Positions 11,763 through 28,874 of a stretch of 34,329 nucleotides of DNA are shown here, piece by piece. The DNA is from a virus: IMG/VR virus record IMGVR_UViG_3300031223_000023, positions 1-34,329 of that record, one strand, 5' to 3'. Made by a program: the position numbers and the translations under genes. Position 1 is the stretch's first letter; each line of letters starts with the position of its first letter. The notes beneath the pieces were generated by a model. The model worked only from the letters and a program-made list of their open reading frames with translations, was not told the origin of the DNA and made no database searches.

Positions 11763-11791
11763 TTGCACTAGGAGAAGTTTATCCCTATAAT
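11763..11791 (+). promoter_or_regulatory. Sigma70-type promoter with TAGGAGAAGT spacer motif (copy 1)
   Basis: TTGCAC (11763-11768), a 17-bp spacer and TATAAT (11786-11791). The spacer begins with TAGGAGAAGT, which also occurs directly after the -35 of two other promoters at 21764 and 28591. It would drive the small-gene array starting at 11836. Confidence 0.75.
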
Positions 11792-11804
11792 ATAAAGCAA
11801 GAAG

Positions 11805-11835
11805 TTATTTAAAAACCTTTTAACCACTACACAGC
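11805..11835 (+). repeat. Conserved 5' leader, copy A1
   Basis: The 34 bases ending in the ATG at 11836 are identical to those before the gene at 12052. The shared tail is TTTTAACCACTACACAGCATG minus its first T. There is no Shine-Dalgarno. Confidence 0.8.
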
Positions 11836-12015
11836 ATGAGAATTTCACACGTAGAAGCAATCGACCTACTGAAAGAACACGGAACGACCGCCACAATGGA
11901 TAATGACTTTATAACAGGTCAAATAGAACCCGTTGCGAATAGTTCTTTTTACGATTACCTAGGGAAGCGAGAATTTTACAATCTTAAGGCCGTAAAGACT
12001 TGGCTTGGGTACTAA
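11836..12015 (+). CDS. 59-residue phage protein ending in WLGY
   Basis: Opens at the ATG fixed by the conserved leader and runs to TAA at 12013-12015. The sequence begins MRISHVEAIDLLKEHGTTAT, continues with YDYLGKREFYNLKAV and ends KTWLGY. Short phage proteins with an N-terminal EAIDLL-type helix and a C-terminal (V)xxWLGY are familiar from other phages, with a compact helical fold by appearance, but I know no assigned function. It is the first gene after the promoter at 11763. Confidence 0.7.
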   Translation: MRISHVEAIDLLKEHGTTATMDNDFITGQIEPVANSSFYDYLGKREFYNLKAVKTWLGY

Positions 12016-12020
12016 CATTA

Positions 12021-12051
12021 TTATTTAAAAACCTTTTAACCACTACACAGC
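12021..12051 (+). repeat. Conserved 5' leader, copy A2
   Basis: Including the ATG, it is a 34-base exact duplicate of copy A1 and starts 6 bases after the preceding stop codon. Confidence 0.8.
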
Positions 12052-12171
12052 ATGAACGCAGTACAAACGAACACGGCAAGCGAAAAACTAAGCACACGAC
12101 AGACAGAACAGCTTTATAGCGAATCAGCTATTGAGTGCGGTTTAGACTCTGGTGAATGGGGCAGATTCTAA
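12052..12171 (+). CDS. 39-residue protein of unknown function
   Basis: A frame from the leader-defined ATG to TAA at 12169-12171, beginning MNAVQTNTASEKLSTRQTEQ and ending in DSGEWGRF. It is polar, with no membrane segment and no known motif. The duplicated leader in front of it is the main support that it is translated. Confidence 0.55.
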   Translation: MNAVQTNTASEKLSTRQTEQLYSESAIECGLDSGEWGRF

Positions 12172-12179
12172 AGAAGAGA

Positions 12180-12209
12180 TTATTTAAAACAATTTAACCA
12201 CTATATAAC
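12180..12209 (+). repeat. Conserved 5' leader, copy A3
   Basis: Together with the ATG this 33-base block is identical to the one before 12673 (copy A5); both end in TTTAACCACTATATAACATG. Confidence 0.8.
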
Positions 12210-12449
12210 ATGACCGCAAAAATAATTGACGAACACAAGACACTAGACGGAACGAGCTACCGAATACAGTTTGAGAATGGTTTAAAACTATGGTTTGATA
12301 CTTGGCGCAGTGACAATGAGGTCACAGGTGACTGGAACAAATATATATTTCACTTAAATAATCCTGATGATGTGATAGAAAGAGATTTTCAAAACAATAG
12401 TGATAATTTTGAGATAGCCATTAATTTAACCACTGATTTAACCACTTAA
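12210..12449 (+). CDS. 79-residue protein of unknown function
   Basis: A small acidic protein with a beta-rich look (YRIQFENGLKLWFDTWRSD, WNKYIFHLNNPDDVIE). Its last residues, NLTTDLTT, are encoded by two tandem copies of ATTTAACCACT, the leader core, so the next gene's leader has been built into this gene's 3' end. No known family. Confidence 0.65.
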   Translation: MTAKIIDEHKTLDGTSYRIQFENGLKLWFDTWRSDNEVTGDWNKYIFHLNNPDDVIERDFQNNSDNFEIAINLTTDLTT

Positions 12450-12453
12450 TAGC
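12424..12453 (+). repeat. Degenerate tandem leader, copy A4
   Basis: ATTTAACCACT occurs at 12424-12434 and again at 12436-12446, followed by TAATAGC and the ATG at 12454. It overlaps the end of the upstream coding sequence. Confidence 0.65.
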
Positions 12454-12639
12454 ATGAAAAATATAATTATACCGTCTCATTTGCTTCCAAAAGATTATTC
12501 TGGTTATAGACCACTCATAAAACCAAAGCTAACCGTTTTCGAACGGATAAGAATTACTTTAGCCTTAGCGTTACTTGTCGGACTAATTGCGATGTCAGCG
12601 GCTTATTTTGAGCTATGGCTGAGCGTTCAAGGCTTGTAG
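12454..12639 (+). CDS. 61-residue membrane protein
   Basis: A basic N-terminal half (PLIKPKLTVFERIRITLA) is followed by one membrane segment near residues 36-56 (LALALLVGLIAMSAAYFELW) and a five-residue tail. The positive-inside rule predicts a cytoplasmic N-terminus. A role in superinfection exclusion or membrane remodelling is conceivable for an early single-pass phage protein, but nothing in the sequence says so. Confidence 0.65.
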   Translation: MKNIIIPSHLLPKDYSGYRPLIKPKLTVFERIRITLALALLVGLIAMSAAYFELWLSVQGL

Positions 12640-12642
12640 AAT

Positions 12643-12672
12643 TTATTTAAAACAATTTAACCACTATATAAC
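12643..12672 (+). repeat. Conserved 5' leader, copy A5
   Basis: Exact 33-base match to copy A3 including the ATG; starts 3 bases after the previous stop codon. Confidence 0.8.
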
Positions 12673-13362
12673 ATGAGAGTAACACGAACCGCAGTCGATT
12701 TTGACCCGTTTTTATTTGGTACGAATGCACGAACCACTTTAGAAGATTACGAGTTTAGCGCTGGATATGAACCAGGCGCAAACTACTTAGAGCCTTTGCA
12801 CATAGAAACGTATTACACAGACGAGCTAGATAAAGCCTTTAGAGATACTGGTCTAGATCGTGACGAACTTATAAGCGAGCTAATTTATTCTATTGGTGAA
12901 GCTGAGCGAGCGCAATTTGAAACTGAGACCTTCCAATTAGTGAGAGATGTTACTGATTGTTTAAACGAACTACCGTTTGTAACGGTTAAGTTTAAAAATT
13001 ATGATGAAATAATTATCACCACAAACGAATCCAAAGCGATTAAATACTTTAAAGAGCTAAACGGTGCTGACATGACTCAAAATGACTTTTACGATAGTTT
13101 TAGCGATGCTTTGGCCTATGCTGATGAACTAGCAAGCGATGACCTTGGTACCGAATTATTTTACAGTCATTTTGATCGACACGAACCAGATCCAGAAAAA
13201 ACAGAAATTGAGCACTTTTTTAATGAACGGCTATGGGAGGCGGTTTATAGCCGTGACCAGTATCGAGATGTTCTAAAGACAAAGCAAGCAAAAGAGCGAC
13301 TAGCCGCAAATATCGGTAAAATAAAAGCCGGGATAAACCCTTTTAAAACAGCCCTTACTTAA
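12673..13362 (+). CDS. Acidic 229-residue early protein of unknown function
   Basis: A strongly acidic protein (YYTDELDKAFRDTGLDRDEL, HFDRHEPDPEKTEIEHFF) that turns basic in its last 35 residues (KTKQAKERLAANIGKIKAG). The middle contains FVTVKFKNYDEIIITTN. Acidic early proteins of this size include DNA mimics used against host restriction or recombination, which makes it a candidate; I see no diagnostic ArdA or Ocr motif. The start is set by the conserved leader. Confidence 0.7.
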   Translation: MRVTRTAVDFDPFLFGTNARTTLEDYEFSAGYEPGANYLEPLHIETYYTDELDKAFRDTGLDRDELISELIYSIGEAERAQFETETFQLVRDVTDCLNELPFVTVKFKNYDEIIITTNESKAIKYFKELNGADMTQNDFYDSFSDALAYADELASDDLGTELFYSHFDRHEPDPEKTEIEHFFNERLWEAVYSRDQYRDVLKTKQAKERLAANIGKIKAGINPFKTALT

Positions 13363-13384
13363 AACAATTTAACCACTATATAAC
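13359..13384 (+). repeat. Conserved 5' leader, copy A6
   Basis: TTAAAACAATTTAACCACTA followed by TATAAC and the ATG at 13385; its first bases overlap the previous stop codon. Confidence 0.8.
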
Positions 13385-13696
13385 ATGAATACAGAACGCA
13401 AAATGAAGCCAATAGTCAGACAATTGGCCAAAGATTTAGATACGATTGTAGATCAAAACGTAGCCGATATCGTCAAAGATATAAACGATATAAAGAGAGA
13501 CGAACTAAAAACTCTTAAGGTCATGAAAGCGATATCTTTTGCTTTATATGATCTAGAAACCAATAAAATTGATTGTAAACAATGCTCCATTGAATTGGCA
13601 AAAATAAGGTGCGGATTAGAGAGTAATAAGATTTGCACGGGGTTTAACACTCTTGGTCACTTGGCTCAGCTTTGTAGAGCACTCAAAAACAATTAA
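13385..13696 (+). CDS. 103-residue helical protein of unknown function
   Basis: Predominantly helical and charged (RQLAKDLDTIVDQNVADIVK, DIKRDELKTLKVMKAIS) with four cysteines in its C-terminal half (CKQCSIELAKIRCG and others). The cysteine spacing is not a standard zinc finger. No family recognised. Confidence 0.65.
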   Translation: MNTERKMKPIVRQLAKDLDTIVDQNVADIVKDINDIKRDELKTLKVMKAISFALYDLETNKIDCKQCSIELAKIRCGLESNKICTGFNTLGHLAQLCRALKNN

Positions 13697-13697
13697 T

Positions 13698-13723
13698 TTA
13701 AAACAATTTAACTACTATATAAC
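13698..13723 (+). repeat. Conserved 5' leader, copy A7
   Basis: Same as copy A6 with one change (AACTACTAT for AACCACTAT). Confidence 0.75.
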
Positions 13724-13948
13724 ATGAACACAGAAACTGCAATCGGTAAACTAAACGTATTAGAGAGACTCAAAAGCTCTTTTGTAGGCAATCCGCGCTA
13801 CCTTATTGAGATAAACGGCACGGCATACCGAACGGAACCAAACTCAAGTTTAGGCTACTCAGTAACGAATTATGACGGGGATCAAGTAAGGGCTCAGGTG
13901 CGAATTTATCGCGGCAAGTGGGCAATTCAATCAGTTAAAACAATCTAA
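13724..13948 (+). CDS. 74-residue protein of unknown function
   Basis: An N-terminal helix (AIGKLNVLERLKSSFV) and a beta-rich C-terminal part with YLIEINGTAYRTEP and RAQVRIYRGKWAIQSV, suggestive of a small beta barrel or sheet. No known motif. Confidence 0.65.
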   Translation: MNTETAIGKLNVLERLKSSFVGNPRYLIEINGTAYRTEPNSSLGYSVTNYDGDQVRAQVRIYRGKWAIQSVKTI

Positions 13949-13957
13949 TAAAACACT

Positions 13958-14344
13958 ATGACAAACAATAAGACGGCAATCAAAAACAAGTACAAGAAAT
14001 ATATAAGCCAAGGCTTTGATCTTGATCTATTAGGACTTCCAAAGAATAGCACGCCAAAAGCAAGGGCTAGTGCCTTTCTATTGACGGTTAAAAAGTGCCA
14101 AGGGGTGAATCATGGCGTGGCCGTGTTAAACCATATTCAGGGCTTAGGCCAAGGGTTATACGTTGAGTATAATTATCATGATATCCTAAAAAGGGCTAAA
14201 CGGTACGGATTAATAAAAAGTATGTTACAGGCTAAGAAATACGACACCATGAATAAAGAGAAAGCCCTTGAGCGAGTAGAGAATCAAATCTGTGATGACT
14301 ATTGGCGAGTTATCGCTACCTATATTTTACAAATGGCACAATAA
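13958..14344 (+). CDS. Basic 128-residue protein of unknown function
   Basis: A basic, largely helical protein (NKTAIKNKYKKYISQGF, ILKRAKRYGLIKSMLQAKKY) with a Gly-rich central turn (HIQGLGQGLYVEYN). The high lysine content and helices would suit nucleic-acid contact, but no motif supports this. Its leader (AATAAAACACTATG) is a weak version of the conserved one. Confidence 0.65.
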   Translation: MTNNKTAIKNKYKKYISQGFDLDLLGLPKNSTPKARASAFLLTVKKCQGVNHGVAVLNHIQGLGQGLYVEYNYHDILKRAKRYGLIKSMLQAKKYDTMNKEKALERVENQICDDYWRVIATYILQMAQ

Positions 14345-14361
14345 TTTAACCACTATATAGC
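14343..14361 (+). repeat. Conserved 5' leader, copy A8
   Basis: AATTTAACCACTATATAGC followed by the ATG at 14362. It starts within the stop codon of the previous gene. Confidence 0.75.
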
Positions 14362-14580
14362 ATGACTATAGAACAATTAACGCAATTAAATGACAAGCTA
14401 GCGGATACCCTTTGCATGACTAGCGGATTTAAAATGGCTTTAAAGTCATTTTCTACTGGTAATAAAGAGCAAAACAAAGCACTTACAGAGTTTTGTGACA
14501 TTATCACAAAAAATTTACTCGAATCAAAAAGACTTATTCATAACGAGATATCTAAACCCTTAACCACTATTAAACAATGA
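14362..14580 (+). CDS. 72-residue helical protein of unknown function
   Basis: Two amphipathic helices are suggested (IEQLTQLNDKLADTLCM and LTEFCDIITKNLLESKRLI). Its C-terminus (ISKPLTTIKQ) is encoded by the leader-like sequence that also serves the next gene, and its stop overlaps the next ATG (ATGA). Confidence 0.6.
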   Translation: MTIEQLTQLNDKLADTLCMTSGFKMALKSFSTGNKEQNKALTEFCDIITKNLLESKRLIHNEISKPLTTIKQ

Positions 14581-15278
14581 AAAATCAAACTACTTGGCTA
14601 CCGTTCTTTTCAGGCTTTTATGAGACTTACTATATTAATGATTATAATTTAGATGGGGAGGGTGATTATATTAAACAAGAATACCCGTTTTTAACAGAAT
14701 CACAGATTGAGACTATTGTCGAAAATACTGAAGTAAACTATAAAAAGGCACACTTAGATTATGCTAAGGCTTACACAGAGTCATTTTTTGATGCTTTCAA
14801 GGACGAACTAAAAGCAATCGGTATTACTAGTATTGAGTTCAAGGAAATTGATTCTCCAAAGTATTACAATTTTATAAATGATAACATTGAAGTGGATATC
14901 TCGTTTAATGAAAAGTTATTTAAAACCAAGGCCAAAGAGTATCTATTGAGCGATGACGGCAAAGAACATATAGAAGACAATTACACCAGTTACAACGGCT
15001 TTCTGTCACATCATTCTAGCGATGCTAAAGAGTGGTTAAACGAGATATTTGATTATCATAAATTTGGTGCTCTTTTGTCGGCTCTTATTGCTAAAGAGTT
15101 TAATCAAGATGATGATCTTGATCAGTTTGTTTATGAAAATATTGGGTTTAGTTTGACTGAATATATTTTAACCGACTACGATTTAGAGGCAAAAAAGCTC
15201 AACCCAAAAGAGTATAAAAAACATGAAAATTTTTTATGTCAAGCGGCAAATTCTGACACATTATTTGAAAAGGTTTAG
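14577..15278 (+). CDS. Acidic 233-residue early protein of unknown function
   Basis: An acidic, aromatic-rich protein (ETYYINDYNLDGEGDYIKQE, EFNQDDDLDQFVYENIGF) with a helical central part (KKAHLDYAKAYTESFFDAFK). Together with the gene at 12673 it is one of two large acidic proteins in the array and a possible DNA mimic or anti-defence factor; no family is recognised. ATGA coupling to the gene before it. Confidence 0.65.
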   Translation: MKNQTTWLPFFSGFYETYYINDYNLDGEGDYIKQEYPFLTESQIETIVENTEVNYKKAHLDYAKAYTESFFDAFKDELKAIGITSIEFKEIDSPKYYNFINDNIEVDISFNEKLFKTKAKEYLLSDDGKEHIEDNYTSYNGFLSHHSSDAKEWLNEIFDYHKFGALLSALIAKEFNQDDDLDQFVYENIGFSLTEYILTDYDLEAKKLNPKEYKKHENFLCQAANSDTLFEKV

Positions 15279-15293
15279 GCCGCTGACTAACAC

Positions 15294-15344
15294 TATCCAA
15301 ACGCGCACACAGTAAAAACAAAGTAATTAATAATTTAAACCACT
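15294..15344 (+). repeat. 33-bp intergenic repeat plus leader, copy R1
   Basis: Left half TATCCAAACGCGCA, then C, then right half ACAGTAAAAACAAAGTAA, followed by TTAATAATTTAAACCACT and the ATG at 15345. Confidence 0.85.
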
Positions 15345-15635
15345 ATGTCATATTTAAAATTACCAAAACGAGCATTTAACAGCCCTTGCATTGCATTTGC
15401 CAACCTTCAAGATGGAAGTCACGTAAACCTAATAAGACTCAGTAAACCATATGCTAATGGTGTCTCTTATGCGGTATATGAGACAACTAGGTCTGTTTTT
15501 TGTTCAAACGGACTATTCAAGACTTACGAACAAGCAAAAGAGAAGTTTGATTTAATGGTTACTAACGCCGCAAGCACTAGCCCTGTTAGGAACACAGATT
15601 ATACGAGCAACGCGCACACAGTAAAAACAAAGTAA
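15345..15635 (+). CDS. 96-residue protein of unknown function, C-terminus encoded by a repeat
   Basis: A small soluble protein (IAFANLQDGSHVNLIRL, GLFKTYEQAKEKFDLMV). The FKTYEQAKEKFD segment looks like the short F-T-x-x-E-A helix found in many phage small proteins. Its last eight residues, NAHTVKTK, are the translation of intergenic repeat R2 read in one frame, so the repeat supplies the stop codon. No known function. Confidence 0.65.
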   Translation: MSYLKLPKRAFNSPCIAFANLQDGSHVNLIRLSKPYANGVSYAVYETTRSVFCSNGLFKTYEQAKEKFDLMVTNAASTSPVRNTDYTSNAHTVKTK

Positions 15636-15645
15636 TTAATAATTT
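15610..15645 (+). repeat. 33-bp intergenic repeat, copy R2
   Basis: Starts at ACGCGCA (the TATCCAA part is missing), carries C at the variable base and the full right half. It overlaps the end of the preceding coding sequence in frame. Confidence 0.8.
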
Positions 15646-15659
15646 TATACACCTACAAT

Positions 15660-15902
15660 ATGAAAACCCCTTTTGAATGGATGCCAGACGTATTACACAA
15701 ATTTGCACACGAGCAACTCGATAAAGCAATCGAATCGGTGGATGATTACAGGGGCTGTACAGCAAGCCATTTGTCCATGCACACGCTACTTGATGAGGCG
15801 CTAGAAGCCACAAAAGATTTGCCAGCACACGAATTTCTAGCCGATATTAGTGACGAATATTTAATAATCGAGTTTGTAGAATCTAATAAATTTAATACCT
15901 AA
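15660..15902 (+). CDS. 80-residue acidic protein of unknown function
   Basis: A helical acidic protein (VLHKFAHEQLDKAIESVDDY, LLDEALEATKDLPAHEFL). No motif recognised. It lies between repeat copies R2 and R3. Confidence 0.65.
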   Translation: MKTPFEWMPDVLHKFAHEQLDKAIESVDDYRGCTASHLSMHTLLDEALEATKDLPAHEFLADISDEYLIIEFVESNKFNT

Positions 15903-15916
15903 TGAATGACTAGTGC

Positions 15917-15974
15917 TATCCAAACGCGCAGACAGTAAAAACAAAGTAATTAATAATTTAAACCACTATATAAC
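15917..15974 (+). repeat. 33-bp repeat joined to leader, copy R3
   Basis: A full repeat with G at the variable base, followed by TTAATAATTTAAACCACTA and TATAAC before the ATG at 15975. Here both repeated elements occur back to back. Confidence 0.85.
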
Positions 15975-16133
15975 ATGACTCAAGATAAAGTAAAAAACTA
16001 TTTTATGGCCAAAAAGGGCTACAAACTAGTAAACGGCAACGGTTTTGATTTAGTCGAAAAATATCAAAAGCTAGGGCACAACGTCACAGTCTTTTGTGCT
16101 AAGTATTTAATTTATAAAGTAAAAACAAAGTAA
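15975..16133 (+). CDS. 52-residue basic protein of unknown function
   Basis: A frame from the leader-defined ATG to TAA 16131-16133, starting MTQDKVKNYFMAKKGYKLVN. Its last residues, YKVKTK, are encoded by the right half of the repeat (copy R4). The protein is lysine-rich with alternating beta-like stretches (HNVTVFCAKYLIY). No family recognised. Confidence 0.6.
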   Translation: MTQDKVKNYFMAKKGYKLVNGNGFDLVEKYQKLGHNVTVFCAKYLIYKVKTK

Positions 16134-16160
16134 TTTAATTTAATTTAACCACTATATAAC
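16118..16160 (+). repeat. Half repeat plus leader, copy R4
   Basis: Only AGTAAAAACAAAGTAA of the 33-bp unit is present, followed by the leader TAATTTAACCACTATATAAC and the ATG at 16161. Confidence 0.75.
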
Positions 16161-16652
16161 ATGAAATCCGTAAAAAAAATGATTTCCGAACATTTGGAAC
16201 AAAATAAAATAGCCCTAGCTGAGCATGATTTTCTAGAAAAGATAGTTTTTAAAAACCTGAACAAGACGCCAGACGGAAGAGTTTTTAATAAAAAGGCGTT
16301 AGGCGATGATTTTAAAATAAGTGTAAATACTAAGGGATGCTACTCTTTTCGCTTTGTGGTACAAAATAAAGTTACGGGCAATAATCATTATTTCCCAAGC
16401 GTTCTAGGCATCGAATCATTTAGAGATTCCAACATTCCCAATTATAAGGGTTCAATTGATCGAATAGCACAATTAAAAAAGCTTGATGCAAATGATCTAC
16501 AAAAGACACTGAACCGCGCCAATAAGCATTTTGAAGCACTAAAGAGTGAGATTAAGAACATGGACTCGTTCAGCAATCCTATACACTATGACATGCTACG
16601 AGAGATTGACCCGAGCGAAAGAGCAAAAATCGGTAGCTACTTATTTATTTAA
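16161..16652 (+). CDS. 163-residue basic protein of unknown function
   Basis: The N-terminal helix (SVKKMISEHLEQNKIALAEH) is followed by a beta-like middle (CYSFRFVVQNKVTGNNHYF) and a helical C-terminal half (LNRANKHFEALKSEIKNM). No known motif. It is one of the larger genes in the repeat-bounded array. Confidence 0.65.
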   Translation: MKSVKKMISEHLEQNKIALAEHDFLEKIVFKNLNKTPDGRVFNKKALGDDFKISVNTKGCYSFRFVVQNKVTGNNHYFPSVLGIESFRDSNIPNYKGSIDRIAQLKKLDANDLQKTLNRANKHFEALKSEIKNMDSFSNPIHYDMLREIDPSERAKIGSYLFI

Positions 16653-16682
16653 AACACTATTAACAAAGGCATAAAAGCTGAC

Positions 16683-16720
16683 ATCCAAACGCGCACACAG
16701 TAAAAACAAAGTAATTAATA
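16683..16720 (+). repeat. 33-bp intergenic repeat, copy R5
   Basis: Lacks only the first T, carries C at the variable base, and continues TTAATAAATCACTACTA to the ATG at 16732. Confidence 0.85.
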
Positions 16721-16731
16721 AATCACTACTA

Positions 16732-17067
16732 ATGAAAATAAACTTCAATTTAACTATTTACGATAAAACAGAGAGGCATATCAAGACAATGAAACTGGGC
16801 CCAAGTTGGGATGATGACATAACCACTAGGGCAATATTAGTTAATATTAAAAACCATGCACCAGGGCATACTTTTGAATTATGGAAGAGCGACAATAAAA
16901 ATGCGTTCGTGTTTCTTGCCTTGCTTAAGAAAAATAATAAAAATGAGATACTAAGAGAGAGTAAACACTATTCAGGCCATAGAATCCTAAACAATTTAAC
17001 AGAGCGATTCAAGACTATTTTAACACAAGAAAGAAAGGAGAATGACCTTAATGCTCTAGCACAATGA
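16732..17067 (+). CDS. 111-residue protein of unknown function
   Basis: The N-terminal sheet-like part (INFNLTIYDKTERHIKTMKL) precedes AILVNIKNHAPGHTFELWKS and a basic helical end (NLTERFKTILTQERKEN). Its stop overlaps the next ATG (ATGA). Confidence 0.65.
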   Translation: MKINFNLTIYDKTERHIKTMKLGPSWDDDITTRAILVNIKNHAPGHTFELWKSDNKNAFVFLALLKKNNKNEILRESKHYSGHRILNNLTERFKTILTQERKENDLNALAQ

Positions 17068-17288
17068 AAAGAATCATGCACGACGGCGACAATCACCTAA
17101 AGCTCTTTACGGCTTTGGCTGAAGAGGGCGTAAGTAGAAAGCTGTTTGATGCCTTTATAGAAGAGGCTGAAGAGGGTTTATGTTTTGCGGATATTAGACA
17201 TTATGAGGAACTACTAAAGCGGCAAGATATATATTTTAGTTATGACCTAGACGGTAAGCCCTGCGATATTTATTTTATAACAGATTAA
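17064..17288 (+). CDS. 74-residue acidic protein of unknown function
   Basis: Helical N-terminal two thirds (DNHLKLFTALAEEGVSRKLF, FIEEAEEGLCFADIRHYEEL) and a short beta hairpin at the end (IYFSYDLDGKPCDIYFI). Coupled to the preceding gene by ATGA and separated from the next by one base, with no repeat between them. Confidence 0.6.
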   Translation: MKRIMHDGDNHLKLFTALAEEGVSRKLFDAFIEEAEEGLCFADIRHYEELLKRQDIYFSYDLDGKPCDIYFITD

Positions 17289-17289
17289 C

Positions 17290-17556
17290 ATGATGAACGA
17301 ACTCAAGACTATTTACGAATCACAATTTCAAGGGGCAAGCGGTAGAAAATTTAGTGTTTACAGTGATTGTCCGAGATTCACCACTATAAAGGCCATTGAT
17401 AAAAAGCGGCCTAAATCACAATTGGCAATGACTAGCACGAATTACGTTGTCACTCTTAATTGTAATCGGTATCAAGTGCAATTTGTTGACAATGCTCACA
17501 TAGGACTTCTGCCCAAACATTCTAATGGCGAAACCCTTAATCTATATGATTATTGA
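17290..17556 (+). CDS. 88-residue protein of unknown function
   Basis: A beta-rich small protein (KFSVYSDCPRFTTIKAIDKK, YVVTLNCNRYQVQFVDNAH). Two adjacent ATGs (17290 and 17293) are possible starts. It is followed directly by repeat R6. Confidence 0.6.
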   Translation: MMNELKTIYESQFQGASGRKFSVYSDCPRFTTIKAIDKKRPKSQLAMTSTNYVVTLNCNRYQVQFVDNAHIGLLPKHSNGETLNLYDY

Positions 17557-17595
17557 TATCAAAACGCGCAGACAGTAAAAACAAAGTAATTAATT
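17557..17595 (+). repeat. 33-bp intergenic repeat, copy R6
   Basis: Begins immediately after the TGA of the previous gene; has TATCAAAACGCGCA (one change) and G at the variable base. Confidence 0.85.
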
Positions 17596-17607
17596 CTATT
17601 TTTATTT

Positions 17608-17946
17608 ATGAACCGAAAAACAGATCGAAACCGTTTAAAATACAGCCAATATGAAGAGGGCAAAATAAAGTGTCCTATGTGTGATGGGTACTATAAAAAG
17701 ATTTGTTCACATGTTGTTCAGCGGCACGACATGACGAGCAAAGATTTTAAGGCTAAGTATGGCTATAATAATAAAAAAGGGGTTATGACAAAAGAGAGCA
17801 GAGAGATAGCAAGGGCAAACCTTTTTAAAAATTATGAGCAATCAGTCACAGAGAATCTACTGATCAAAGGCTTTGATACCCGTGTTAAGAAAGGACAAAC
17901 ATTTATACATAGGCCAAAGGGTAGTAAGAGTCATGCAAATAAATAA
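17608..17946 (+). CDS. Ros/MucR-like zinc-finger regulator
   Basis: A 112-residue basic protein. Residues 22-50 read CPMCDGYYKKICSHVVQRHD then MTSKDFKAKYGYN, matching the Ros/MucR pattern of a CxxC pair, a short loop with histidine ligands (HVVQRH) and the following MT-x-x-x-(F/Y)-(K/R)-x-K-(Y/W)-G helix. Such proteins bind AT-rich DNA as regulators. The rest is lysine-rich (TRVKKGQTFIHRPKGSK). The zinc site is C22, C25, H35 and H40 by my count. It could regulate the promoters in this array. Confidence 0.75.
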   Translation: MNRKTDRNRLKYSQYEEGKIKCPMCDGYYKKICSHVVQRHDMTSKDFKAKYGYNNKKGVMTKESREIARANLFKNYEQSVTENLLIKGFDTRVKKGQTFIHRPKGSKSHANK

Positions 17947-17963
17947 TACTAACCACTATAACA

Positions 17964-18158
17964 ATGAAACTAAATACAACCGAAGCACAATATTATGCCT
18001 TAGCGGGTAGATCAAAGCGAGATAAATCAGCAGTAATACACTATTATGAAAAGTGTATTCGATTGGCTCGATTTAATAACGAGTCGGTAGATAGGTTTAA
18101 ACAAGTCTTAGCTATAATGAGAAAGGTTGAGATAAGTATCCAAACGCGCACACAGTAA
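17964..18158 (+). CDS. 64-residue basic protein of unknown function
   Basis: A helical basic protein (YYALAGRSKRDKSAVIHYYE, VDRFKQVLAIMRKVEIS). Its last residues, IQTRTQ, are encoded by repeat R7 in a frame different from that at 15610. The leader AACCACTATAACAATG is a variant of the conserved one. Confidence 0.6.
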   Translation: MKLNTTEAQYYALAGRSKRDKSAVIHYYEKCIRLARFNNESVDRFKQVLAIMRKVEISIQTRTQ

Positions 18159-18170
18159 AAACAAAGTAAT
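18137..18170 (+). repeat. 33-bp intergenic repeat, copy R7
   Basis: A complete unit with C at the variable base; the TAA inside ACAGTAA is the stop codon of the preceding gene. The next ATG is at 18180. Confidence 0.85.
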
Positions 18171-18179
18171 CAATATTTA

Positions 18180-18437
18180 ATGAGCCAAAGCATAAAATCG
18201 GTAATGAAAGAATATGGATGGGAGACTGTTTCTACTGGAACCCATAGTGTGTACTATCCAAAAGAGGAACACCTCACCAGAAAGCACTGGGAAGTGATTG
18301 ATGTGTGGGAAAAATCCTACGAACGCTTTACTCTGGGGTTCTACCTGGAGGCAGGTAGACCTCGACCCCGCAAGGGGTTTAACAGAAACCTATCTCGACA
18401 AGAACTAAACATAGTTCTATTAAATTTATTATCATGA
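18180..18437 (+). CDS. 85-residue protein of unknown function
   Basis: Contains an aromatic-rich middle (VYYPKEEHLTRKHWEVIDVW) and a basic stretch (GRPRPRKGFNRNLSRQEL). No family recognised. It overlaps the next gene by ATGA. Confidence 0.65.
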   Translation: MSQSIKSVMKEYGWETVSTGTHSVYYPKEEHLTRKHWEVIDVWEKSYERFTLGFYLEAGRPRPRKGFNRNLSRQELNIVLLNLLS

Positions 18438-18748
18438 AAATCATTAAGCCGACTCCGTATTTAACAACTATTGAACTAGAGCACAGAGTGTCCTGTAGGA
18501 TCGACTCTAGCGCTTATGAGCATGGCGTGGCTAACTCAACTATCGAATCGTACAAAAGAACGCTCAGAGGAGGGTATTTCATCACAGAACTAGGCAGATT
18601 TGATCAAGGTGATGTCGAAATTGTCCTAAGTCCTGTCAATAGCACTAATCGGTTTTGTGAAGCCCTGTGGATTGCTCCTTATATGAATTACTTTATTGGT
18701 ATAGGATGCTTATCCAAACGCGCAGACAGTAAAAACAAAGTAAAATGA
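18434..18748 (+). CDS. 104-residue protein of unknown function
   Basis: A small soluble protein (TTIELEHRVSCRIDSSAYEH, YFITELGRFDQGDVEIVLS). Its C-terminus, SKRADSKNKVK, is repeat R8 read in the third frame. Coupled at both ends by ATGA overlaps. Confidence 0.65.
   Translation: MKIIKPTPYLTTIELEHRVSCRIDSSAYEHGVANSTIESYKRTLRGGYFITELGRFDQGDVEIVLSPVNSTNRFCEALWIAPYMNYFIGIGCLSKRADSKNKVK
18711..18743 (+). repeat. 33-bp intergenic repeat, copy R8
   Basis: A complete unit with G at the variable base, lying entirely inside the 3' end of the preceding coding sequence and reaching to 1 base before the next ATG at 18745. Confidence 0.85.
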
Positions 18749-19035
18749 ATAAATGCGACACTGATTCCTATTTAGATCTGATAACAAAAATGAATGACTT
18801 GTCTCGTAGCCTCAGGCAAGGCTTGGCACATGGATTGAGTGAGAACCTCTTAGACAACATTGTTTATGATATGGCTAGGGATTCAGAGCCTCATGAATGT
18901 GAGATCGTGCTGTTTCATGGGATCAGATTTCGTATGGACATATTTACATCAAGGACTCTGCATGAGATCATCTTAGATAATCATGGTGTCGATATATTTG
19001 CCACTAGCAGATACAAAATACCTGAACATTTCTAA
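18745..19035 (+). CDS. 96-residue protein of unknown function
   Basis: Helical N-terminal half (LDLITKMNDLSRSLRQGLAH) and a mixed C-terminal half (CEIVLFHGIRFRMDIFTSRT). Last gene of the array; its stop is followed by repeat R9. Confidence 0.65.
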   Translation: MNKCDTDSYLDLITKMNDLSRSLRQGLAHGLSENLLDNIVYDMARDSEPHECEIVLFHGIRFRMDIFTSRTLHEIILDNHGVDIFATSRYKIPEHF

Positions 19036-19043
19036 GGAGGTAA

Positions 19044-19076
19044 TATCCAAACGCGCAGACAGTAAAAACAAAGTAA
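19044..19076 (+). repeat. 33-bp intergenic repeat, copy R9
   Basis: A complete unit with G at the variable base. Unlike the others it is not followed closely by a start codon; the next gene opens 164 bases later. Confidence 0.85.
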
Positions 19077-19240
19077 GCAAAGAATCTCTTGCTCAAAAGA
19101 TTAAAATAAACTAGGGTGTGGTTCAAAAGTCGTTGAGTGTTCTTTGTTGGGATTGAGTGGTGGTCTTTCGTAGTGGTTAAACCATTACTTTAGTCCCTGC
19201 TAAGGACATTCAGGAAAATAAAATTAATCACTATAAAACA
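19077..19240 (+). other. Gene-free stretch with reverse complement of the leader core
   Basis: 164 bases with no gene. TAGGGTGTGG and GT-rich sequence precede TAGTGGTTAAA at 19171-19181, the exact reverse complement of the leader core TTTAACCACTA, inside a small palindrome TGGTTAAACCA (19174-19184). A GTCC/GGAC hairpin follows near 19192. It ends in a variant leader (TTAATCACTATAAAACAATG). It could be an untranslated leader or a short RNA. Confidence 0.4.
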
Positions 19241-21451
19241 ATGACATCGAATCTAGAGAAAATCGTAGGAGGCTTCCCGGCCATTAGTTCACCAGAATCA
19301 AATGAACTATTAAGGATCGGGAGCGCTTTGTTTATCTTATCTAGAATAAGTACTTTTTATAAGGTGAAAGTTAAAGATGGCAAAACCACAGACACTTTCT
19401 GTAATGTTTTCTTCTTATTTTTTGGTGGAAGTGGAGAAGGGAAAGGGAAGGTGTTAAAATCGTTTGAACAACTGGAATCCTTTCAGGAGTTCTTGTCGGT
19501 GGAGAGGGAAGAGATCCAGGGGTTCGAGAAACGGGCCCTAAAAATGTACGCAAAAGAATATTTCACGAAATATGCGACAGAAGTGGTTTTTGATGATCCT
19601 GTCGATATCATGGAAAATAAAGAGGGTGATAAAGACAAGAAAAACGAGCAAAAGAAGGCTATCACATATGCGAGAGCTAAGGTGAAGGGCATCCAGCCTA
19701 TAATGAGCGATTCTACTCGTCCCAACCTAGAGTCCACTGCGATTGCTGTTTGTGGACACGATAAAATATCGGTTTCCATAAAGAATGATGAGTTTTTGAT
19801 CTGGATGAAAAGAAAGGCTAAGGAAAGTTTCGAGTTATTCGAGTTTATGGCCGAAAGCTATGACAATGGAGACGCTATTACAAAGGGTACGAATGCAGCA
19901 AACAGAAGTGTGGACGAATCAATGATTCGGGGGTTCCCTTTGAACGCAATCTTCTTTAGCTCTGAATACCTCATGGGGGATGTTGGTATAAATGGACTAT
20001 TGAAGGATTTCTTCGTCACGGCTGGGGCCAGAAGGTTTTTGACAGCCTCTGGAGAAGAATTATCAACTCCACTCTACTCAGAGGACGACATAGAATTCTT
20101 GTTTGATGAGAAAAAAGAGGAGACGAACAAGATCATGGAGCGATTTATTCGTGGGTGCAAAGATTTTACTTCTGAGGGAGTTCTTGTGGGAGTGGATTTA
20201 AGGATCCAGATTGCGGCTGATAAAAAAAGAATTAATGAAGACCTGAAGAAAGACACTCGTCTATCTCATTTATCACGAATTGAAATTAAGGGGAGTATAT
20301 GGAGAACTCTTAAAATAGCAGGGCTATTGGCTATTTTGAATCATCCAACAAACAACGAGATCACCATGGCCGATTATGAGGAGGCAAAAAGAATTAATCA
20401 GAAGTTCATTCGTTCTTTCAAGGGCATTGTGGAAAGAAATTGGGCTGAGGACGAAGATTCTTTCGTTGATTTTATCGAGAAACACCCAAGATGTAGTAAA
20501 GGAGACTTATATCAATTAAAATTATTCTCCAAGAATAAACTCGATAGACGGAGAAGATATGATGAGCTAATAGATGTTTGTGGCGAAACGATCCAGACAC
20601 AAGGTTCCGTATTGTTGATAGAAAAAGGACCTGATGGTAAAACCTTCTTGCACTCTATTGTCGCCAAGCCCACAGATTTAAAATCGGTAGACGAGGTGAA
20701 ATTAAAATTATCCCTCTCTCAGGACATGGCAAAGGACTATAAAGTTAAAGACGTGACAATAGACCAGCTCTGTAAGGTCTTGGAAAATCAAAAAGGTATC
20801 AACTACTCAGCCGGAGAATTTAAGGACGGACACAGGAAGCAAAGTAATTGGCTTGGTGGGAATAATTGTTTAATTCTGGATATCGACAATGAAGAAGGGG
20901 AATTAACTATGGAAGCCACCCATACCATATTTCAGGATTTCAAATATGTCATCCAGCCAACAAAGAGTCACGGCATTGACAAATCGGGCCATGGTATAAA
21001 AGAGCGCTTTCGGATTATATTTCCTACGGCTGTTATGCCTAAAATGGAGGTTAAGAGATTCAGGGCTATTTATGATAAGTTTCATGAATCATTTGGTATA
21101 ACTGAATTTGGTGACATCAAAGCATCGGGGGACACTGCTAGATTCTACTATCCGTCGCCCCATAAGGCAGTTATTAATGAAGGCATAAAGATGGTGAATT
21201 GGGAATTGTATGACGAGCCGGAAGTAGTGGAGAAAATTACTCAGAAGCCAAAAGTTTTTAAAGAAGGAGCCACAAAGCCAAATGTAGATGAGTCTTTGTC
21301 GCAATACGATTATTTGGCAGTGGGTGAAAAACTGCCCATCAAATGCCCTTACCACGATGATAAGAACAAGTCGGCATTTGCTACGAGGAAAGACGAAAAA
21401 GCGGTATATGTGACATGTAGCGCCTGTGACAAAACTATGTTTTCTAATTAA
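19241..21451 (+). CDS. Helicase-like / winged helix / PrimPol primase / zinc ribbon replication protein
   Basis: A 736-residue multidomain protein. Residues 1-400 resemble DUF3987-type primase-associated ATPases: a P-loop-like GGSGEGKGK at 62-70 and the typical closing region (IWRTLKIAGLLAILNHP, EITMADYEEAKRINQKF). Residues 408-473 are a winged helix related to the protein at 11401. Residues about 505-660 look like an archaeo-eukaryotic (PrimPol-type) primase: LILDIDNEEG with the D547/D549 pair, SHGID, KERFRIIFP and DTARFYYPSP. A zinc ribbon closes it (C702, H705, C726, C729). It is likely the replication initiator or primase-helicase. The P-loop is not canonical, so ATPase activity is uncertain. 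The order ATPase-then-primase is the reverse of the common arrangement. Confidence 0.8.
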   Translation: MTSNLEKIVGGFPAISSPESNELLRIGSALFILSRISTFYKVKVKDGKTTDTFCNVFFLFFGGSGEGKGKVLKSFEQLESFQEFLSVEREEIQGFEKRALKMYAKEYFTKYATEVVFDDPVDIMENKEGDKDKKNEQKKAITYARAKVKGIQPIMSDSTRPNLESTAIAVCGHDKISVSIKNDEFLIWMKRKAKESFELFEFMAESYDNGDAITKGTNAANRSVDESMIRGFPLNAIFFSSEYLMGDVGINGLLKDFFVTAGARRFLTASGEELSTPLYSEDDIEFLFDEKKEETNKIMERFIRGCKDFTSEGVLVGVDLRIQIAADKKRINEDLKKDTRLSHLSRIEIKGSIWRTLKIAGLLAILNHPTNNEITMADYEEAKRINQKFIRSFKGIVERNWAEDEDSFVDFIEKHPRCSKGDLYQLKLFSKNKLDRRRRYDELIDVCGETIQTQGSVLLIEKGPDGKTFLHSIVAKPTDLKSVDEVKLKLSLSQDMAKDYKVKDVTIDQLCKVLENQKGINYSAGEFKDGHRKQSNWLGGNNCLILDIDNEEGELTMEATHTIFQDFKYVIQPTKSHGIDKSGHGIKERFRIIFPTAVMPKMEVKRFRAIYDKFHESFGITEFGDIKASGDTARFYYPSPHKAVINEGIKMVNWELYDEPEVVEKITQKPKVFKEGATKPNVDESLSQYDYLAVGEKLPIKCPYHDDKNKSAFATRKDEKAVYVTCSACDKTMFSN

Positions 21452-21752: not shown

Positions 21753-21763
21753 GTAGGAAATAC

Positions 21764-21792
21764 TTGTGTTAGGAGAAGTACTGTGCTATACT
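21764..21792 (+). promoter_or_regulatory. Sigma70-type promoter with TAGGAGAAGT spacer motif (copy 2)
   Basis: TTGTGT (21764-21769), a 17-bp spacer that begins TAGGAGAAGT, and TATACT (21787-21792). The predicted start is about 21798, at the head of the structured RNA. Confidence 0.75.
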
Positions 21793-21797
21793 GCTCA

Positions 21798-22078
21798 GGA
21801 GGAAGTTCCTCATTTCTTTCCTTCGGGATCCACACAGGGGACATTTAAATTGGTTATCACCCCTGTGTTAAAGTGTTCTTTCGAGCTTCATTACATGGTG
21901 GCTCAAGGTAAAGTGGCAAGGTAATTTGATACATGTTATGGTCAGGTGCTTGGTCATCCACCGAAACAGGGGGACTCCTATTGTGGCTCAAATCCATACC
22001 TATGTAATGAAGCTTGAGGGGATACCTCAAAAAAGTGTTTAGACCAAGCTCTCCTGGTAGCTATATACCAGGTTTAAA
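21798..22078 (+). ncRNA. Candidate structured non-coding RNA of about 280 nt
   Basis: The region has its own promoter and no gene. Visible pairings: a GAGG/CCTC hairpin at 21799-21811; a 9-bp stem ACACAGGGG/CCCCTGTGT (21832-21840 with 21860-21868); an 18-pair long-range stem joining 21881-21898 to 22000-22017 (14 or more Watson-Crick pairs in a row in its core); a TTGAGG/CCTCAA hairpin at 22014-22030, whose first bases compete with the end of that stem; GCTTGGTC (21948-21955) pairing with GACCAAGC (22042-22049), a pseudoknot; and a terminal hairpin at 22053-22072. TGGCTCAA occurs twice inside the loop, and ACAGGGG recurs at 21966-21972, so alternative folds are possible. I do not recognise it as tmRNA, RNase P, 6S or a known riboswitch. 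Confidence 0.65.
22053..22078 (+). terminator. Terminator-like hairpin at the end of the structured RNA
   Basis: CCTGGTA pairs with TACCAGG across a six-base GCTATA loop, then TTTAAAAA. The U-tract is short, so termination may be partial and downstream lysis genes could be read through. The A-rich flank could also act on the opposite strand. Confidence 0.45.
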
Positions 22079-22104
22079 AAGTTATTTAATTAATCACTAT
22101 AAAT

Positions 22105-22242
22105 ATGCGAGTACAAAAACGGCTGCCGAACGGGAGATTTAACGGAAGCAGGTTTTCACTGTGTTTCCTTAGCTTTCTTTTGGGTGTCATCGCACAATCG
22201 TTATTTTATATCGCTTTACTAATTCATGCCATTAACCAATAA
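22105..22242 (+). CDS. 45-residue membrane protein, lysis-region candidate
   Basis: A frame from an ATG that follows a variant leader (TTAATCACTATAAATATG) to TAA 22240-22242. A basic N-terminal 16 residues (MRVQKRLPNGRFNGSR) precede one membrane segment (CFLSFLLGVIAQSLFYIALL). As the first gene after the structured RNA and before the lysozyme, it is a holin or pinholin candidate, but single-segment phage proteins have many roles. Confidence 0.55.
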   Translation: MRVQKRLPNGRFNGSRFSLCFLSFLLGVIAQSLFYIALLIHAINQ

Positions 22243-22464: not shown

Positions 22465-22556
22465 AACCACAAAATTCACTAAAAATCGTCGTCGTCGTAC
22501 TGATTGCTCTAGCAATTCATTTATCACTCGGAATTTATTTAGGACTATCACAATGA
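22461..22556 (+). CDS. 31-residue single-span membrane peptide, holin/pinholin candidate
   Basis: The N-terminus is MKPQNSLK, then one membrane segment IVVVVLIALAIHLSLGIYLG and the tail LSQ. It overlaps both neighbours by ATGA, including the lysozyme gene directly after it. A tiny membrane peptide directly before a signal-anchor-release lysozyme is the usual place for a pinholin that depolarises the membrane and releases the enzyme. The function is inferred from position. Confidence 0.6.
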   Translation: MKPQNSLKIVVVVLIALAIHLSLGIYLGLSQ

Positions 22557-23146
22557 AACACTTTAACACGTTACCGGACGAAAAGGATTTAAAATCTTTT
22601 CTACAGATCATTACTCACCCGATACTTATTATCGGAGCCATGTTTATTGTGGCAAGTCTGCTTATTCAGCCTACTAAGGCGTTTAATCTATCGAATCAGC
22701 TAACTAAACCTTTAGAGTTTGGGTTAATAGCTACGGATGATAGTTATTTAGACCAAGCTACCGAGATGATTGCAGGGCATGAAGGATTTAACCCTTATTG
22801 TTATAAGGACGGCAACGGTTATTCTCAGGGCTACGGACATAAGTGCTTAGGAGGCAAGATTAGCCAAGAGCGAAGTAAGGAGATTCTTAAGAATGAAGTT
22901 AAACGCTTAGACGATAAAGTCCGTCAGGGGTGGAAGCCTACCCAAAGAGTCGGGATTATTTCTTTCCTGTATAATCACCCAGTCAATCAAAGAACTTACG
23001 TTAATTGGTTGAATCATGACGCTGAAAGATTCCAATCAATGCTTGAATATAGAGCGAATAATCACGTCTACATTAACGGTCAAAGGCAAGGCGGTTTGTT
23101 AGTTAGACGTGCTGAAGAGTGGGAGCTAATTTATAATACATTTTAA
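22553..23146 (+). CDS. Membrane-anchored (SAR-type) phage lysozyme, GH24
   Basis: A 197-residue endolysin. Residues 18-38 (HPILIIGAMFIVASLLI) form an uncleaved signal anchor, followed by a linker and the GH24 domain: catalytic Glu at 77 (AGHEGF), D86 (YCYKDGNGY), S91 and the GYGH turn at 93-96. The spacing E-x8-D-x4-S is one residue shorter than the usual E-x8-(D/C)-x5-T, with Ser where Thr is normal. It cuts the glycan strands of peptidoglycan once released from the inner membrane, which implies a Gram-negative envelope. C83 lies in the catalytic cleft. Confidence 0.85.
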   Translation: MKHFNTLPDEKDLKSFLQIITHPILIIGAMFIVASLLIQPTKAFNLSNQLTKPLEFGLIATDDSYLDQATEMIAGHEGFNPYCYKDGNGYSQGYGHKCLGGKISQERSKEILKNEVKRLDDKVRQGWKPTQRVGIISFLYNHPVNQRTYVNWLNHDAERFQSMLEYRANNHVYINGQRQGGLLVRRAEEWELIYNTF

Positions 23147-23382: not shown

Positions 23383-24153
23383 ATGAGATACCCAACATAC
23401 ATTTTAGTAACAATGTCATTCGCAGTGAGTGCGATGATGTCTGTTTATTTTTTACACAGCAACGCAGAGCACTGGAAGCTCCGTTATCATAATTTATATG
23501 AACAAACTGAATCAGAGGAAATAGGGCTCGGAAAATCGCCTCTGTTTGTTTATTTCGATAAAAGAAATGAGTACAACATTTCAATGTCGTGTAGTAGAGA
23601 ATCTAACTCCAACTCCTTGAACTTTGGCGCACAACTAGCACTAAAACAATTACACGAAGAAGCCTTGTTGTCAGGAATGAAGATAATGACATTTGAAACC
23701 CGGAGAGGGTTATGCCGCCAAACAGAACTTTACAAGCAGGGCACTACTAATCGACTTCACTCCGAACATCTTCTGGGTAATGCCTTTGACATAGCCTTCT
23801 TAGACCAAGACGGCAAGGCCACATGGCAATCCTCTCGCTGGGAGGATCTTGGGGCTATAGGCAAGGGTCTTGGGCTGATGTGGGGAGGCGATTTTAAAAC
23901 AATCTACGATCCCGGACACTTCGAGCTAAAACAAGAAATTAACGGATCAATGATTGACTACGAAGCCGAAGAAAAACGATATAATCAGTCACTGATCGAG
24001 AGCAAGTTTAATGAACTCGGTTGTGGTGGGGATTACGATATAAATTGTCAGCTGATGGGACTTTGCGGAGTGGCTGACTACCCTTGGGTTATACCAGGGG
24101 AACATAACTACCAGACAATATCAGAATGTATTAACCAAATTTTAGAATTTTAA
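23383..24153 (+). CDS. Membrane-anchored M15 (VanY/L-Ala-D-Glu type) peptidase
   Basis: A 256-residue protein. Residues 5-24 are an N-terminal hydrophobic anchor or signal (TYILVTMSFAVSAMMSVYFL). The domain at about 75-185 carries the LAS metallopeptidase signature: H129 and D136 in SEHLLGNAFDIAF (HxxxxxxD) and H179 in YDPGHFEL, together the zinc ligands, with a RQTELYKQG segment before them. It would cut peptide cross-links while the lysozyme cuts the glycan. The C-terminal 65 residues contain five cysteines (GCGGDYDINCQLMGLCGV and others) and are not part of the usual domain. Confidence 0.8.
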   Translation: MRYPTYILVTMSFAVSAMMSVYFLHSNAEHWKLRYHNLYEQTESEEIGLGKSPLFVYFDKRNEYNISMSCSRESNSNSLNFGAQLALKQLHEEALLSGMKIMTFETRRGLCRQTELYKQGTTNRLHSEHLLGNAFDIAFLDQDGKATWQSSRWEDLGAIGKGLGLMWGGDFKTIYDPGHFELKQEINGSMIDYEAEEKRYNQSLIESKFNELGCGGDYDINCQLMGLCGVADYPWVIPGEHNYQTISECINQILEF

Positions 24154-28017: not shown

Positions 28018-28599
28018 ATGGAAAAAGAAATTGGCATCAAGTACGATGAAGGGAAGCCTCAGTATGGACTTATTCCCCCAAGAGCGCTACTGGAGATTGT
28101 GAAAGTTCTTACTTTCGGTGCAAAGAAGTACAGTCCTGATAACTGGAAAAAGATAGAGGATATCCCATTGAGGTATTTCGATGCGATGCAGCGACACGTT
28201 TGGGATTGGAAGTCAGGAGAAAGAAAAGATCCTGATAGTGGTTATCATCACCTGGCCCACGCTGCTTGTTGCCTGTTGTTCGTAATTGCCTCTGAATTTT
28301 TTAATGAAGATAATAATGATATTAAAAGTATTGGCGGTCATGGAGAAGACGTTAAAGCAGGATCTGAAGTCGGAAATAGGACAAACCAATTTTGGGTCCC
28401 ATTTGCAGGAAGTCCAGGGTTTGATGCAGAGTTTGCGATCAGGAATTATTCTCTCGCTAACAGCAGCACAAAGAGAAACCCTATTAGTGGGGAGGGAATC
28501 AATTCAAAAGGAAGAACCATTTTCGAGCGAGGCACAAAAGAGAGTGATCAGGACCTGTCTCAAGGAAGTGGACGACTTGCTAGGAAAAGATTGACCTAG
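28018..28599 (+). CDS. dATP/dGTP diphosphohydrolase-like (DUF5664) protein with odd C-terminus
   Basis: Residues 1-100 match the dATP/dGTP diphosphohydrolase N-terminal family (DUF5664, MazG-related): KYDEGKPQYGLIPP, FGAKKYSPDNW, RYFDAMQRHVWDW and HHLAHAACCLLFVI. Family members hydrolyse dNTPs to dNMP and pyrophosphate; in some phages this shapes the nucleotide pool, including that of 2-aminoadenine phages, but no PurZ or DpoZ is seen in this window. After about residue 110 the sequence becomes hydrophilic and unlike the family (NSSTKRNPISGEGINSKG), while the +1 frame over the same bases looks more protein-like. The tail may be extended read-through of an overlapping gene, or result from a frameshift. 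Confidence 0.75.
   Translation: MEKEIGIKYDEGKPQYGLIPPRALLEIVKVLTFGAKKYSPDNWKKIEDIPLRYFDAMQRHVWDWKSGERKDPDSGYHHLAHAACCLLFVIASEFFNEDNNDIKSIGGHGEDVKAGSEVGNRTNQFWVPFAGSPGFDAEFAIRNYSLANSSTKRNPISGEGINSKGRTIFERGTKESDQDLSQGSGRLARKRLT
28340..28594 (+). CDS. Possible overlapping 84-residue helical protein in +1 frame
   Basis: The frame opens at ATG 28340 inside the preceding gene (an earlier ATG at 28304 is possible) and ends at TGA 28592-28594. It reads MEKTLKQDLKSEIGQTNFG and later SLTAAQRETLLVGRESI and EAQKRVIRTCLKEVDDLLGK, with the hydrophobic periodicity of real helices. Either this is a true overlapping gene, or it is the real C-terminal part of the hydrolase displaced by one base. It ends just 3 bases after the start of promoter copy 3. 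Confidence 0.45.
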   Translation: MEKTLKQDLKSEIGQTNFGSHLQEVQGLMQSLRSGIILSLTAAQRETLLVGRESIQKEEPFSSEAQKRVIRTCLKEVDDLLGKD

Positions 28600-28618
28600 G
28601 AGAAGTAATGAGTATGAT
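28591..28618 (+). promoter_or_regulatory. Sigma70-type promoter with TAGGAGAAGT spacer motif (copy 3)
   Basis: TTGACC (28591-28596), a 16-bp spacer starting TAGGAGAAGT, and TATGAT (28613-28618). It overlaps the stop codons of the upstream frames and points at the Cro-like gene at 28641 and the recombination genes beyond. Confidence 0.75.
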
Positions 28619-28640: not shown

Positions 28641-28874
28641 ATGAAATTTGAAGAATGGCTATCGAGACACAAGATGAGCAAATTGGAGTTTTGCCGAAGG
28701 GCAGAGATAGATGCCAGAAATTTAAATACATGGCTATCTGGTTCTTCTGAGCCATTGATTAGTAATTTTATACCCTTCGTTGCACAGGTTTTAAAAATGG
28801 ACCCAGAGGCAAATGCCTTGTCGTTCTTTCCTTTTAATACGAAATTAATAAATGCCGAATCCTTATTGAAATGA
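28641..28874 (+). CDS. Cro/XRE-like helix-turn-helix protein
   Basis: A 77-residue protein. MSKLEFCRRAEIDARNLNTW at about 11-30 has the helix-turn-helix spacing of Cro/XRE regulators, followed by LSGSSEPLISNFIPFVAQVL. It starts 23 bases after the third TAGGAGAAGT promoter and could act on the shared motif. The leader ATAAAAACAATG is A-rich. Overlaps the next gene by ATGA. Confidence 0.7.
   Translation: MKFEEWLSRHKMSKLEFCRRAEIDARNLNTWLSGSSEPLISNFIPFVAQVLKMDPEANALSFFPFNTKLINAESLLK

Follow-up and report, generated by a model that had tools for sequence, protein, structure and literature searches.

The timing of phage lysis has been studied mostly through proteins, the holins and antiholins. RNase III-processed phage leaders are also known, among them the lambda N leader and the T7 early processing sites, and the put RNA of HK022 needs no phage protein for its action, in which it binds RNA polymerase to suppress termination. 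In HK022, putL lies just downstream of PL, and the putRNAs are ~70 nt long with two stem-loops (PMC9378689). GOLLD RNAs are often >800 nt in length, and both GOLLD and ROOL are often found near tRNA islands (PMC12286853).

Here, we analyzed the IMG/VR virus record IMGVR_UViG_3300031223_000023 in full (the window; 34,329 bases, positions 1–34,329). Between its primase-helicase gene and its lysis genes lies an element which, judged from its sequence, would on balance be the structured 5′ leader (~306 nt) of a lysis-led operon, acting in cis.

Results

Genomic setting of the element

The first 10.9 kb carry structural and packaging genes (tail fibre, capsid, portal, terminase) on the minus strand, and all other genes of the record lie on the plus strand. 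The original prediction placed a structured RNA in a gene-free stretch, and 21753–22104 indeed holds no convincing gene. The genes 3′ of the element encode small membrane proteins, an endolysin and an M15 peptidase (Table 1); the first of them, a 45-aa protein, is a possible holin. Further plus-strand genes encode a C5 DNA methylase, a YqaJ recombinase and a deformylase-like protein (PF01327; 33709–34161). ARAGORN found no tRNA or tmRNA in the window.

Inspection of the start-codon contexts of the phage genes indicated that Shine-Dalgarno sequences are nearly absent from them. Bacteroidetes have no such sequences (PMC6847099), and flavobacterial promoters carry a TAnnTTTG −7 box (PMC9723704), but this box with its partner occurs only once per strand in the record. 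Within 11805–16164, TTTAACCACTATATAACATG or a close variant of it stands directly at start codons in about nine places and may represent a translation-initiation context for genes without Shine-Dalgarno sequences. Separately, the early region carries eight copies of a ~52-nt repeat (ATCCAAACGCGCASACAGTAAAAACAAAGTAATTAAT) within 15284–19089, which make up a repeated intergenic module; the majority directly precede a small gene's start codon.

Table 1 Features of the element and its surroundings, with positions in the window.
Feature	Position	Strand	Remarks
Sister promoter	11763–11791	+	Heads early operon; ~38-nt leader; no RNA element
Primase-helicase	19241–21451	+	Upstream of the RNA element
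Promoter	21764–21792	+	TTGTGT-TAGGAGAAGT-...-TATACT; one of three motif copies
Predicted first transcribed bases and 5′ hairpin	21799–21811	+	GAGGA-AGU-UCCUC; 7 bases downstream of −10; MFE fold; putative start site
9-bp hairpin	21832–21868	+	ACACAGGGG/CCCCTGTGT; 19-nt loop; pair probabilities 0.87–1.0
5′ arm of 26-pair helix	21873–21898	+	
Enclosed domain, 101 nt	21899–21999	+	Repeats GTGGCTCAA (×2) and CAAGGTAA (×2)
Loop side of proposed pseudoknot	21948–21955	+	GCTTGGTC; not significant alone
3′ arm of 26-pair helix	22000–22025	+	
Alternative hairpin	22014–22030	+	TTGAGG-GGATA-CCTCAA; exclusive with outer part of helix, overlaps 3′ arm
Downstream side of proposed pseudoknot	22042–22049	+	GACCAAGC; not significant alone
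3′ hairpin	22053–22072	+	CCTGGTA/TACCAGG; arms 22053–22059/22066–22072; no U-run after
AT-rich start-codon context	22079–22104	+	AAGTTATTTAATTAATCACTATAAAT; resembles leaders of other genes of the phage
First gene of downstream operon	22105–22242	+	45-aa protein; one predicted transmembrane segment
Endolysin	22553–23146	+	Phage_lysozyme PF00959; N-terminal membrane segment; in downstream operon
M15 peptidase	23383–24153	+	Downstream of the element
Sister promoter	28591–28618	+	~16-nt leader; no RNA element

The promoter belongs to a three-copy motif

A promoter had been proposed ahead of the element, and the sequence there, TTGTGT-17-TATACT with an extended −10 (TGCTATACT), agrees with this and proved to be part of a repeated motif. 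The promoter has a TG ahead of its −10 box. By consensus alone it is mediocre, and it is absent from the promoter scan listing; it is credible because TTGNNNTAGGAGAAGT together with a −10 box recurs at 11763 and 28591. These two sites and 21764 are the only exact copies of TTGNNNTAGGAGAAGT in the record. All three lie on the plus strand in intergenic or gene-end positions, and each is followed by a −10 box (TATAAT, TATACT or TATGAT) 16–17 bases past the −35 hexamer, giving the phage promoter motif TTGNNNTAGGAGAAGT N6–7 TATRAT. The three copies constitute a family of phage promoters in which the block separating the −35 box from the −10 box is conserved, and this shared 10-mer may be an operator or activator site specific to the phage. 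The leader downstream of the 21764 promoter would measure ~306 nt, versus about 38 and 16 nt at the sister promoters. The gene 3′ of the third copy (28641–28874) has a 77-aa product without a Pfam match, which resembles a small regulator of the helix-turn-helix type.

The 3′ end and a probable leader of the lysis-led operon

The RNA had also been expected to close with a hairpin and a terminator-like end. The hairpin is present, but the terminator is not supported: taking an intrinsic terminator as a G+C-rich hairpin followed by a U run, none was found at 22053–22078, where the tail after the last hairpin, TTTAAAAA, holds three U and TTTAAAAAGTTATTT falls short of even a lax U-run threshold, although unusual tails may terminate in the host. 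Beyond the hairpin, the DNA at 22073–22104 is AT-rich, and AAGTTATTTAA...YCACTATAAA stands immediately ahead of the ATG at 22105, as it does at 11801–11836 and ahead of the primase gene. AAGTTATTTAA also recurs in the operon leader downstream of the sister promoter at 11763, and CACTATA-type contexts precede many plus-strand genes. With no U-run and a gene start-codon context directly after the last hairpin, there is no support for a ~280-nt RNA that stands alone and has a terminator of its own, and the 5′ leader of the next operon is favoured for the same reasons. In the simplest reading, the RNA domain either has been inserted into a 5′ leader or extends one. Counting against a leader is the observation that both sister promoters work, as far as can be told, without such an element.

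Less probably, though still with some claim to attention, the locus would encode a separate trans-acting phage RNA of ~280 nt that ends at the 22053–22072 hairpin and has host or phage messages, or a protein, as its target. Its own promoter and the compact set of helices with a final hairpin at 22072 would suit such an RNA, and a hairpin by itself can be enough to stop or to stabilise a 3′ end after processing. However, no U-run follows this hairpin, and the usual gene leader begins at once. Furthermore, when four RNA segments were compared with 62 start-codon regions of the phage, the loops were no more complementary to them than shuffled loops were, which lends no support to a trans role on phage messages.

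By analogy with HK022, the nascent RNA might instead bind the transcribing polymerase so that a long operon is read to its end. Like putL just downstream of PL (PMC9378689), the element lies close to its promoter, where a long rightward run of genes begins. Such put-like antitermination is nonetheless unlikely, since the element is about four times longer than the ~70-nt putRNAs and has one long-range helix in place of two stem-loops (PMC9378689). In addition, a scan of the downstream operon found no strong terminators that would need to be overridden.

A strand-specific 26-pair helix

The long-range stem, originally given as 18 pairs, turned out to be longer, with 26 uninterrupted pairs (20 Watson–Crick and six G·U) around a loop of 101 bases. 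Neither strand of the 34-kb record has a longer helix, the next one having 17 pairs. None of 2000 shuffles of the region (maximum 21) and none of 40 shuffles of the whole record (maximum 19) reached 26 pairs, and the longest helix in the reverse complement of the region, the minus strand, has 13. In a further 595 kb of sequence from phage and bacterial contigs, the longest helix has 24 pairs and is a repeat on both strands, that is, a DNA-type element. The 26-pair helix is beyond chance.

Without its wobble pairs, the long stem shrinks to 13 bp (outer pair 21884–22014), a length that is not unique in the record, as a second 13-bp inverted repeat is present at 14896. The six G·U pairs would become A·C mismatches in RNA of the opposite strand, and the outer half of the helix relies on wobble pairs of the plus strand; the evidence therefore points to the plus-strand RNA and not to a DNA palindrome. 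Together, the strand-specific helix and the three-copy promoter motif support the predicted structured plus-strand RNA with its own promoter, and we consider it very likely that this structured RNA is real.

The location downstream of the primase-helicase gene, the short direct repeats in the loop and the AT-rich stretch at 22073–22104 could also be taken to mark a DNA element beside the replication gene (a replication origin or a cruciform) rather than an RNA. This reading is highly improbable: half of the helix forms only via G·U pairs and only on the plus strand, there is no iteron array, and the GC skew turns near 11 kb and not at the element. An origin of replication at the element was rejected on this strand asymmetry and skew.

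Minor helices and folding energy

Among the smaller parts of the predicted fold, the 9-bp stem (21832–21840/21860–21868) and the second ACAGGGG at 21966 were both found. A pseudoknot had been proposed between the loop and the downstream sequence; the 8-bp complement exists, but it lies within chance (stems of at least 8 bp have a shuffle mean of 0.69) and brings no gain in stability. Freeing the two strands costs 4.2 kcal/mol, against which the duplex gains 12.3 if no pseudoknot penalty is counted; with the usual penalty, the pseudoknotted fold and the MFE fold are about equal in stability. It had also been suggested that the RNA may switch folds; the competing hairpin at 22014–22030 exists but is disfavoured at equilibrium, the fold containing it being 8 kcal/mol worse (−83.5 vs −91.5 kcal/mol). 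In predicted folds of truncated RNAs, the 5′ end is initially paired with the loop, from which it would be displaced when the 3′ arm has been made.

The folding energy of 21790–22085 has a z-score of −3.35 versus shuffles. This bulk value proves little alone, because several coding windows in a genome-wide z-scan of the record reach the same value or fall below it. The reading that ordinary intergenic DNA folds here by chance, which would be compatible with these coding windows and with a pseudoknot within chance, deserves almost no credence, as the 26-pair helix lies far beyond all controls.

Search for relatives

The original prediction could not match the RNA to a known class, and a covariance-model search of the window against Rfam 15 likewise matched no family, none reaching its gathering score. 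A lax search (E up to 5) returned UPD-PKib only, at chance level (18.6 bits vs a gathering score of 39; E = 1). With blastn, no DNA relatives of the element were found in the phage collection, and the plasmid collection yielded one 34-base chance match only. Exact RNA core patterns were found in 40 IMG/VR contigs and two genome contigs, none of them similar beyond the pattern. By terminase, the phage has relatives on five other contigs (37–100% identity) and on one more at 40%; these contigs are short or lack the region of the element. Primase relatives reach only ~22–24% identity. No credible match to the element was present in the five terminase-relative contigs or the primase relative, and no relative was found for the 96-aa protein encoded just upstream of the element. 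Rfam, the phages, the plasmids and the IMG/VR pattern scans thus gave no homologue of the element, and hence no sign of a conserved position or structure.

In one distant relative (contig L006), the region upstream of the terminase gene (800–1060) contains a dense cluster in which AACACGC is repeated in both orientations and a 24-bp inverted repeat occurs, and this cluster looks like a DNA operator or origin. The inverted repeat was considered as a similar element and rejected, being a two-strand DNA repeat of another kind.

Discussion

Based on these data, we propose a plausible course of events for a cis-acting leader. Transcription would start near 21799 from the three-place phage promoter family, and the element would make up the first ~280 nt of a ~306-nt leader that continues into the operon from 22105, so that the RNA would be co-transcribed with the lysis genes. 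The 5′ part would fold locally during synthesis. When the polymerase has moved beyond about 22025, closure of the 26-pair helix is predicted to lock the 101-nt domain, which would leave the AU-rich start-codon context outside the fold. The leader might then act in cis on the operon, either by setting how its message is processed or how stable it is, a 26-pair duplex being a natural substrate for RNase III, or by modifying the polymerase as it transcribes.

We further suggest, quite tentatively, that the element could represent a previously undescribed class of phage RNA, in which a long-range-helix domain between a promoter and a lysis-operon leader refolds co-transcriptionally and times lysis in cis. 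A structured leader before the lysis genes, if true, would add an RNA layer to lysis timing in a phage without Shine-Dalgarno sequences. The analysis also indicates that an orphan RNA can be supported without homologues by one strand-specific helix set against whole-genome shuffles, which bulk folding energy cannot do.

Among known systems, putL and putR of HK022 are reminiscent of the element in being structured RNAs near the 5′ end of a transcript, close to the promoter and before a long gene run, but they differ from it in size and fold, with two stem-loops in ~70 nt as against ~280 nt built around a 26-pair long-range helix. What the lambda N leader and the T7 sites share with it is a long duplex located upstream of a gene in a phage message, through which processing and translation can be controlled; the helix of the element, unlike theirs, encloses a 101-nt domain. 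GOLLD and ROOL are, like the element, phage-encoded structured RNAs, whereas the element is ~280 nt long, lies in a record without tRNA and has no Rfam match. As far as its sequence goes, the element probably counts among the structured phage RNAs, a broad and known kind, while standing outside every described family.
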